64,000 nucleotides of DNA, taken from assembly GCF_009649225.1 (NCBI RefSeq), contig NZ_WJPP01000004.1:62001-126000 (forward strand), written 5' to 3'. Position 1 is the first letter of the stretch; every line of letters starts with the position of its first letter. A program made the translations under genes and the position numbers. Origin of the DNA: Spiribacter salilacus. GTDB taxonomy: Bacteria; Pseudomonadota; Gammaproteobacteria; Nitrococcales; Nitrococcaceae. This document shows, in pieces, positions 14,545-15,473 of the stretch. The notes under the pieces were generated by a model that was not told the DNA's origin, searched no databases, and saw only the letters and a program-made list of their open reading frames with translations.

Positions 14545-15419
14545 GCGGAGTCTCACACGCTTGGCCGGCGCCGGCCAAAATCAATCGTTTTTTGCATATC
14601 ACAGGGCGTCGCCCCGATGGCTACCATACGTTGCAAACCGCGTTTCAATTTGCCGAGCCGGTTGATGAATTAACCTTTACGCTGACCGAGCATTCGGCCG
14701 TAGAAAGAACGGGCGGAATAGCTAATTTACCGCCAGCACAAGATTTAGTGGTAAAGGCAGCCGAGTTACTCCGCGGCAAAGCGGGCATTACCAAGGGCGT
14801 GAGTATTCACGTGGAAAAGCGTATTCCTATTGGGGGTGGCTTAGGAGGCGGAAGCTCGAATGCCGCGACTACCTTGGTGGCATTGAACCATTTATGGGGC
14901 TGCGAGCTTACCCCCAAAGACTTAATGACCTTGGCTTTGCAACTAGGCGCAGATGTGCCGGTGTTTGTGGGCGGGGTTGCTGCTTGGGCCGACGGTGTGG
15001 GGGAAGTATTGACTCCGCTTAGTATGAATCAGCCCTGGCTGCTAATGGTAAATCCGGGGGTTAATGTACAAACAGCAGTTGTTTTTCATGACAGTAAATT
15101 GACACGCAATACTGCAGAGTTAACAATACGCGCCGTTGGGGATGAAGGCATGCGCAACGATTGTGAGCCGGTAGTTCGGCGGTTGTACCCCAAAATTGCC
15201 GCAGTGCTTGATGAGCTCGGTCGGTTGGGGGCCGCAAAGCTCACTGGAACGGGGGGTTGTGCGTTTGCCGAGTATCCGTCGCAGTCTGCGGCTGAGGCCG
15301 CGCAGCGACAACTGAGTAAAGGCCTAGATAGCTGGGTCTGCAGAGCGAAGAATCGCTCGCCGCTCTGCGATCGACTAGCGATCGAGGGCATTGACAACTG
15401 GGGCGTAGCCAAGCGGTAA
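14541..15419 (+). CDS. ispE: 4-diphosphocytidyl-2-C-methyl-D-erythritol kinase
   Basis: ATP-dependent GHMP kinase of the MEP isoprenoid pathway. The 292-residue protein has the substrate motif PAKINRFLHITGRRPDGYH near the N-terminus, the phosphate-binding IGGGLGGGSSNAATTL (about 95-110) and the C-terminal LTGTGGCAFAEY motif. The ATG at 14541 overlaps the lolB stop. The last seven codons (W-G-V-A-K-R-stop, 15399-15419) are also the first 21 nt of tRNA-Gln, and the 3' end upstream of it is rich in inverted repeats. Confidence 0.97.
   Translation: MSGVSHAWPAPAKINRFLHITGRRPDGYHTLQTAFQFAEPVDELTFTLTEHSAVERTGGIANLPPAQDLVVKAAELLRGKAGITKGVSIHVEKRIPIGGGLGGGSSNAATTLVALNHLWGCELTPKDLMTLALQLGADVPVFVGGVAAWADGVGEVLTPLSMNQPWLLMVNPGVNVQTAVVFHDSKLTRNTAELTIRAVGDEGMRNDCEPVVRRLYPKIAAVLDELGRLGAAKLTGTGGCAFAEYPSQSAAEAAQRQLSKGLDSWVCRAKNRSPLCDRLAIEGIDNWGVAKR
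15340..15368 (+). repeat. Two mutually exclusive inverted repeats at the 3' end of ispE
   Basis: GAGCGA (15343-15348) pairs perfectly with TCGCTC (15353-15358) over a 4-nt loop, while GCAGAGCG (15340-15347) pairs perfectly with CGCTCTGC (15361-15368) over a 13-nt loop. They share bases, so only one can form at a time. A direct repeat GCGATCGA follows at 15367-15374 and 15378-15385. They end 30 nt before tRNA-Gln. This may be codon coincidence or a control element. Confidence 0.45.
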
Positions 15420-15473
15420 GGCACGGGGTTTTGATCCCCGCATGCGCAGGTTCGAATCCTGCCGCCCCAGCCA
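15399..15473 (+). tRNA. tRNA-Gln (anticodon UUG)
   Basis: A 75-nt cloverleaf. Acceptor stem TGGGGCG (15399-15405) pairs with CGCCCCA (15463-15469), followed by G and an encoded CCA. The anticodon stem CGGGG/CCCCG encloses loop TTTTGAT, giving anticodon TTG; the T-arm has GGTTCGAATCC. The 5' 21 nt overlap the end of ispE in phase. No own promoter is evident, so it may come from the lolB-ispE transcript. prs follows after 33 nt. Confidence 0.97.

Follow-up and report, generated by a model that had tools for sequence, protein, structure and literature searches.

In Spiribacter salilacus a sigma70-type promoter within the coding sequence of ispE is probably the main source of transcripts for the tRNA-Gln(UUG) gene and the prs gene behind it, while IspE itself would be made from transcripts starting further upstream and the overlap of ispE with the tRNA gene would be a tolerated by-product. 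We studied the locus in a stretch of 64,000 nucleotides (contig NZ_WJPP01000004.1, positions 62,001 to 126,000; here called the window) and in ispE loci of other genomes. Computed here were the overlap itself, how often it recurs, the constraint on codons and the link of the promoter-like site with the tRNA gene. One stretch of DNA is apparently constrained as enzyme and as promoter at once; this is widespread, and lineages without the tRNA provide a natural control. What looked like RNase P destroying the message of a gene of the isoprenoid pathway can be recast as a division of labour between two transcripts. Codon-optimising ispE could moreover silence a single-copy tRNA gene.

Layout of the locus and overlap of ispE with tRNA-Gln

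The genes of the locus are arranged in the order open frame, lolB, ispE, tRNA-Gln, prs and a ribosomal L25-type gene (Table 1). Both GHMP kinase domains were detected in IspE, and its match to TIGR00154 is above the cut-off and free of internal stops. There are two terminator-like sites in the region and 2.2 are expected by chance, so the hairpin behind prs is weak. The window's genome has 43 tRNA genes, and the copy of tRNA-Gln(UUG) adjacent to ispE is the only one; a tRNA-Gln(CUG) gene lies elsewhere. The two minus-strand frames opposite tRNA-Gln encode peptides of a type frequently misannotated opposite tRNA genes, and both are probably spurious.

Table 1. Positions of features in the window (position 1 is its first nucleotide).
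Feature	Start	End	Strand	Remark
Open frame	12314	13951		first in the gene order, before lolB
lolB	13948	14544	+	Pfam LolB; stop overlaps the ispE start (ATGA)
ispE	14541	15419	+	ATG start assumed; 292 codons and TAA
-35 element TTGACA	15099	15104	+	Leu-Thr codons of IspE
-10 element AACAAT	15122	15127	+	17 nt past the -35
Discriminator ACGCGCC, GC-rich	15128	15134	+	transcription start predicted near 15134 from the -10 distance
Open frame opposite tRNA-Gln	15241	15474	-	probably spurious
Open frame opposite tRNA-Gln	15375	15578	-	probably spurious
tRNA-Gln(UUG)	15399	15473	+	CCA encoded; ARAGORN, Rfam RF00005
Overlap	15399	15419	+	last seven ispE codons are tRNA nt 1-21; TAA in D arm/loop
prs	15507	16460	+	begins 33 nt past the tRNA
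Terminator-like hairpin and T-rich tail	16495	16511	+	3' of prs; weak
RNase P RNA gene	42399	42756	+	RF00010, 341.6 bits; part of the enzyme expected to cut tRNA-Gln

The tRNA was called by ARAGORN with the anticodon TTG, its predicted fold is a cloverleaf, and the Rfam RF00005 match covers 15399-15470. The final codons of ispE (TGG GGC GTA GCC AAG CGG TAA) are the first 21 nt of the tRNA gene, with the stop codon at 15417-15419. A protein gene thus runs in frame into a tRNA on the same strand and ends inside it, and with 21 of 75 nt shared the tRNA is not wholly nested in the ispE frame. Here the calls agree with the sequence-only reading made before this analysis, which had recognised the last seven ispE codons including the TAA in the first 21 nt of the tRNA: the sequence, ARAGORN and the frame concur. 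Since the identical 21-nt overlap recurs in a second genome of the genus (locus L035), a sequencing slip does not explain it, and the overlap in the window is confirmed as real. ispE has no earlier stop, so ribosomes on an intact message must read into the tRNA.

As a baseline within the same genome, for four other tRNAs among the 43 there is a stop-to-stop frame on the same strand, at least 100 codons long, that ends in or beyond the tRNA. The four (L172, L216, L186, L213; 91-159 aa) are candidate genes known as open frames alone. They run into tRNA-Pro, tRNA-Leu(cag), tRNA-Arg and tRNA-Leu(caa) and end 23, 22, 117 and 111 nt past the tRNA start, respectively.

Locus sample and definitions

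In total 282 distinct ispE loci were collected. Of these, 196 are flanked by tRNA-Gln, meaning that the tRNA starts at most 700 nt past the ispE stop, 83 are not, and three (L029, L136, L237) are too short to judge and were left out of the comparison of the two groups. Repeat loci (L219, L228, L230, L231, L239) were removed before counting. Partial and below-cut-off ispE matches were left out in two draws, except for the partial places in G048 and G042. As a tRNA-less control we drew on the order of G172, with G256 (internal stop) and a second place in G246 left out, because the order of G130 yielded a single usable genome that was in the sample already. From the non-gamma draw we took 12 of the 29 main matches, hand-picked mainly to spread families, and left out 17. 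All tRNA and promoter counts cover related, unevenly sampled loci and ignore kinship, so that p-values from Fisher tests on them are too optimistic. The tRNA-Gln after ispE has the anticodon TTG in 195 loci and CTG in one (L229).

A locus is called promoter-bearing if TTGAC plus any base is followed, 17 nt past the hexamer, by a -10 whose second base is A and whose sixth is T. The full TTGACA is present in 139 of the 150 promoter-bearing loci and another base ends the hexamer in 11, while 149 of the 150, the window included, have only four of six consensus bases in the -10. One of the 150 is an Omnitrophota contig with a 495-nt gap (L014), whose inclusion may be due to an accident of the alignment.

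A promoter-like site inside ispE

A scan identified TTGACA-17-AACAAT, with 10 of 12 consensus bases, about 300 nt before tRNA-Gln. Because the 2.2-kb region holds four promoter-like matches and 1.5 are expected, such a single match proves nothing; it is the comparison between loci that carries weight. The sequence-only reading had seen no convincing internal promoter within the final 100 nt of the gene, and the scan likewise finds none there, but the site at 15099-15127 had been missed. The interval in which a separate tRNA start had been envisaged (15370-15399) is accordingly too narrow, the predicted start being near 15134. A further TTGACA just before the tRNA (15391-15396) was set aside as a -35, its -10 falling inside the tRNA.

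Leu-Thr occupies the site in 129 of the first 168 loci, and 124 of these have TTGACA, compared to 3.5 expected from the codon use of the same genes; among the other Leu-Thr pairs of these genes TTGACA was found in 1 of 226. The four most codon-biased of the 265 columns in the ispE alignment are the two -35 and the two -10 codons. ATA fills the Ile/Met column at the -10 in 97 of the 129 loci, and at the 17-nt spacing the -10 has A at position 2 in 99% and T at position 6 in 100% of them. The spacing lies within the 16-18 nt typical of sigma70-type hexamers, and the conservation of the site exceeds what coding requires and goes with the presence of the gene downstream, as is expected of such promoters. 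The logo across loci displays a GC-rich stretch 3' of the -10 (AACAAT-ACGCGCC in the window), located between the -10 and the predicted start like the discriminator of stable-RNA promoters. GC-rich discriminators mark stringent control. In a strand control, sites with at least 10 of 12 consensus bases within 400 nt upstream of the tRNA occur in 140 of 196 loci in sense and in 0 of 196 in antisense orientation. TTGACA is also present in four betaproteobacterial contigs (L004, L008, L009, L012), a fifth (L011) having another sequence. We infer from the sequences a putative dual-coding sigma70-type promoter for tRNA-Gln-prs within ispE, and they suggest that tRNA-Gln may not need to depend on the ispE message.

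The site is linked with tRNA-Gln

Comparing loci with and without the tRNA reveals an asymmetry in raw counts: 150 of 196 loci with tRNA-Gln are promoter-bearing versus 1 of 83 without it. The sole tRNA-less locus with the promoter (L096) has a broken tRNA-Gln downstream, the 5' part of which continues into unrelated sequence, owing to either a recent loss or an assembly fault. Of the gamma/beta-type loci, 142 of the 169 flanked by the tRNA have Leu-Thr at the site, compared with 15 of the 62 that lack it; these pairs are encoded as TTGACA in 137 of 142 versus 1 of 15, again L096. E. coli K-12 has no tRNA at the locus and CTCCCG at the -35 position. In all but five of the 150 promoter-bearing loci (145) there is a prs match no more than 1500 nt downstream. 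On a rough ispE tree the presence of the tRNA changes 15 times and that of the promoter 27 times, and in one reconstruction the promoter is lost with the tRNA kept 15 times, with three joint losses and two joint gains.

We lean towards an evolutionary reading in which the IspE residues at the site (Leu-Thr ... Thr/Lys-Ile) have been held in place by the tRNA-Gln promoter, and not by enzyme function, since before the gamma- and betaproteobacteria split. The motif would decay where the tRNA is absent (to Leu-Pro, Leu-Lys or Leu-Ile), replacement promoters would arise elsewhere in ispE where the site is lost and the tRNA kept, and the overlap would be tolerated because the promoter uncouples both products.

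Loci without the main site

The main site is absent from 46 of the 196 tRNA-flanked loci. Another site with at least 10 of 12 consensus bases upstream of the tRNA is present in 16 of them, and the scan found none in the other 30. Five loci from the order of G172 (L260, L263, L267, L283, L286) have a common site near -200, with TAGAAT followed by a GC-rich stretch, and L313 and L314 share one near -125, inside ispE. Near the proteobacterial place, at about -285, lies GTGACA or ATGACA-18-TATAAT in L030 and L031, from contigs titled Kiritimatiellae and Verrucomicrobia, in which ispE overlaps tRNA-Gln. The replacement site is in the gap or at its edge in L082 and L138, L141 has the variant TTGATA at the main place, and the remaining ones are single cases. 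Of the 19 loci with the tRNA that the phylum draw gave outside the window's class, eight are promoter-bearing by our definition, and several of these have TTGACC, TTGACT or TTGACG.

The second embedded site, that of the five loci mentioned, is made of codons for Leu-Leu/Val-Glu-Tyr-Ala-Pro. Its -10 region in the strict form is also found in 26 of 60 tRNA-less loci of an Enterobacterales-like group, in which the site may serve prs. E. coli (L218) has a near form of it with the stretch TTAGAATACGCC.

Recurrence of the overlap and stop codons within the tRNA

Of the 196 loci in which ispE and tRNA-Gln are neighbours, 40 have the ispE stop inside the tRNA and 76 have it 0-20 nt ahead of the tRNA (median gap 17 nt). 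Twenty of the 40 overlaps are 21 nt long, 14 are 10 nt and two are 15 nt, with single cases of 2, 22, 26 and 64 nt. Seven of the 14 genomes of the window's genus have an overlap, two of 21 nt and five of 10 nt, and the other seven have gaps of 1-11 nt; in the family as a whole it is 10 of 23. The overlap also occurs in L030, L031 and L033, from contigs titled Kiritimatiellae and Verrucomicrobia. On the rough ispE tree of 279 loci we count about 30 changes in the overlap, compared with a mean of 37.9 and a minimum of 33 for shuffled labels; it is thus only slightly clustered and has been recurrently gained and lost. The question of the sequence-only reading whether the overlap is conserved across relatives is thereby answered: it is not conserved as such and arises repeatedly. 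It is found in 34 of 150 loci with the promoter and in 6 of 46 without, so that lack of a promoter does not make it more frequent, nor does the presence of one clearly do so.

The overlaps end within tRNA nt 1-22 in 38 of 40 loci, mostly at nt 8-10 or 19-21, and at nt 26 and 64 in the other two. Read in the frame from tRNA nt 1, 159 of 196 loci reach their first stop at nt 21; in the frame from nt 2, 70 of 196 reach it at nt 10, and the third frame usually runs beyond the tRNA end. The deepest overlap (64 nt) is that of L119, which is without the stop at nt 8-10 because its tRNA has C at nt 9. In a stop-loss model we removed the ispE stop in each of 122 non-overlapping loci whose gap does not exceed 60 nt. 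The next in-frame stop then falls in the leader in 27 loci, within tRNA nt 1-22 in 31, further inside the tRNA in five and beyond it in 59, so that endings within nt 1-22 make up 38 of 40 real overlaps versus 31 of 95 in the model. When loci initially classed as tRNA-less were inspected more widely, none had a tRNA wholly inside the ispE frame.

Near-invariant bases of the tRNA thus seem to provide backstop stop codons to the preceding gene. When ispE loses its own stop, the TAG at nt 8-10 or the TAA at nt 19-21 of the tRNA would replace it in two of the three frames, and the overlap would be a recurrent, tolerated by-product. The use of the first tRNA stop by ispE is tolerated and deep reading into the tRNA is rare, a scarcity which general selection against long protein tails may produce as well.

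Expression of the locus and alternative explanations

In our model the locus gives two transcripts. One, coming from upstream (lolB-ispE), would yield IspE, and the other would start near 15134, lack the ispE start codon and be processed into tRNA-Gln and prs mRNA, RNase P stripping off a leader of about 265 nt of ispE sequence. The tRNA could in this way be made without destroying a translated ispE message. A ribosome on the upstream-started transcript would translate 21 nt into the tRNA and stop at the TAA there. If RNase P cut this long transcript first, the ispE stop would be lost and the ribosome would need tmRNA-SmpB; judged by the overlap, the earlier argument that a cut in a shared transcript would leave ispE stopless is right. 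As the family match ends before the tRNA (near 15371), the part lost by such a cut lies outside the conserved region. Genes for tmRNA and SmpB are present in the window's genome, and ArfA was not detected in it. The sequence-only reading had offered three ways out, namely translation of ispE before processing, rescue of the ribosome or a separate tRNA start. The last is the best supported, and the first two would be needed only for transcripts begun upstream of ispE. A working promoter, its start position, the cutting of long transcripts by RNase P and ribosome rescue are what we infer from sequence comparison.

It is unlikely that tRNA-Gln instead depends on the ispE transcript and that RNase P regularly yields non-stop ispE mRNA, giving IspE production an inherent brake which tmRNA relieves. 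The exact geometry of the overlap and the presence of tmRNA and SmpB would fit such a brake, and also the many non-overlapping loci whose ispE ends 0-20 nt before the tRNA would be cut near the stop. However, the conserved embedded site speaks against it, and the overlap is not kept in close relatives, where half of the genomes of the genus have it and these use two frames, which does not suggest a selected brake. A conserved functional brake was therefore set aside as the main reading.

Even less probable, and in our view very unlikely, is that the TTGACA...AAT codons owe their conservation not to a promoter but to a processing signal, an RNA structure or a need of the protein. Leu-Thr and Ile are indeed also frequent residues at the site, but the constraint is on synonymous codons and not on residues alone, and 14 of the 15 Leu-Thr loci without the tRNA use other codons. 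Moreover, the constant spacing suits RNA polymerase, and the replacement sites share the plan of two hexamers and the GC-rich stretch after the -10. That the overlap is an annotation artefact, with IspE ending earlier or in another frame near its end, is hardly credible: its last residues do lie past what is conserved in the family, with the TIGR00154 match stopping about 28 nt before the tRNA, but the ispE frame is open and unbroken up to the TAA within the tRNA and the relative L035 has the same ending.

Comparison with known systems

In mitochondria tRNAs punctuate the transcripts, and their processing sets the mRNA ends at gene borders. The ispE case differs in being a bacterial operon for which a separate tRNA promoter is indicated. 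A likeness is that mRNA ends can be set by tRNA processing. Messages may also be left stopless by it (PMC9674279).

For the overlap of ispE with tRNA-Gln or a promoter embedded there we found no published report, in a search that covered subscription literature thinly and leaves absence from print unproven. In E. coli and Salmonella prs promoters have been placed inside the upstream gene ychB, now ispE. If this is right, prs is transcribed from within ispE there too; the difference is that E. coli has neither tRNA-Gln nor TTGACA here, with TTAGAATACGCC at the second site of L260 and others. The literature search found no paper on these prs promoters in ychB, and the accessible part of PMC10912719, in which they were looked for, yielded nothing. 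A mycobacterial promoter before ispE is unrelated, as far as the excerpt of its report goes (PMC6009663).

The closest published case found, judged by the portion of the paper available, is selB with tRNA-Sec (selC), where the tRNA is often wholly nested and the tail conserved (Mukai 2021, PMC8124441). The same excerpts describe partial overlaps with the selB stop inside the tRNA in Dyella/Luteibacter (nt 46-48) and in a Nitrospirae lineage, loss of the overlap in some relatives, and a proposal that tRNA processing represses the full-length protein (PMC8124441). As in ispE/tRNA-Gln, a protein gene runs into a downstream tRNA on the same strand, and the argument about processing is similar. In contrast to what these excerpts report, most of the ispE stops are at tRNA nt 8-10 or 19-21, an ordinary tRNA-Gln is involved, and the main feature is the putative embedded promoter.

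For the promoter itself Chlamydia offers a parallel: according to the passages seen, the promoter of ihtA lies within the 3' end of sctC and serves a downstream RNA gene (PMC3469542). ihtA was ruled out as an RNA linked to ispE, the linkage given there being to sctC (PMC3469542). Both systems place the promoter of a downstream RNA gene in the 3' part of the protein gene upstream. Compared with the portion available on ihtA, the ispE site differs in that it was traced by codon constraint, through gamma- and betaproteobacteria and some other Pseudomonadota.
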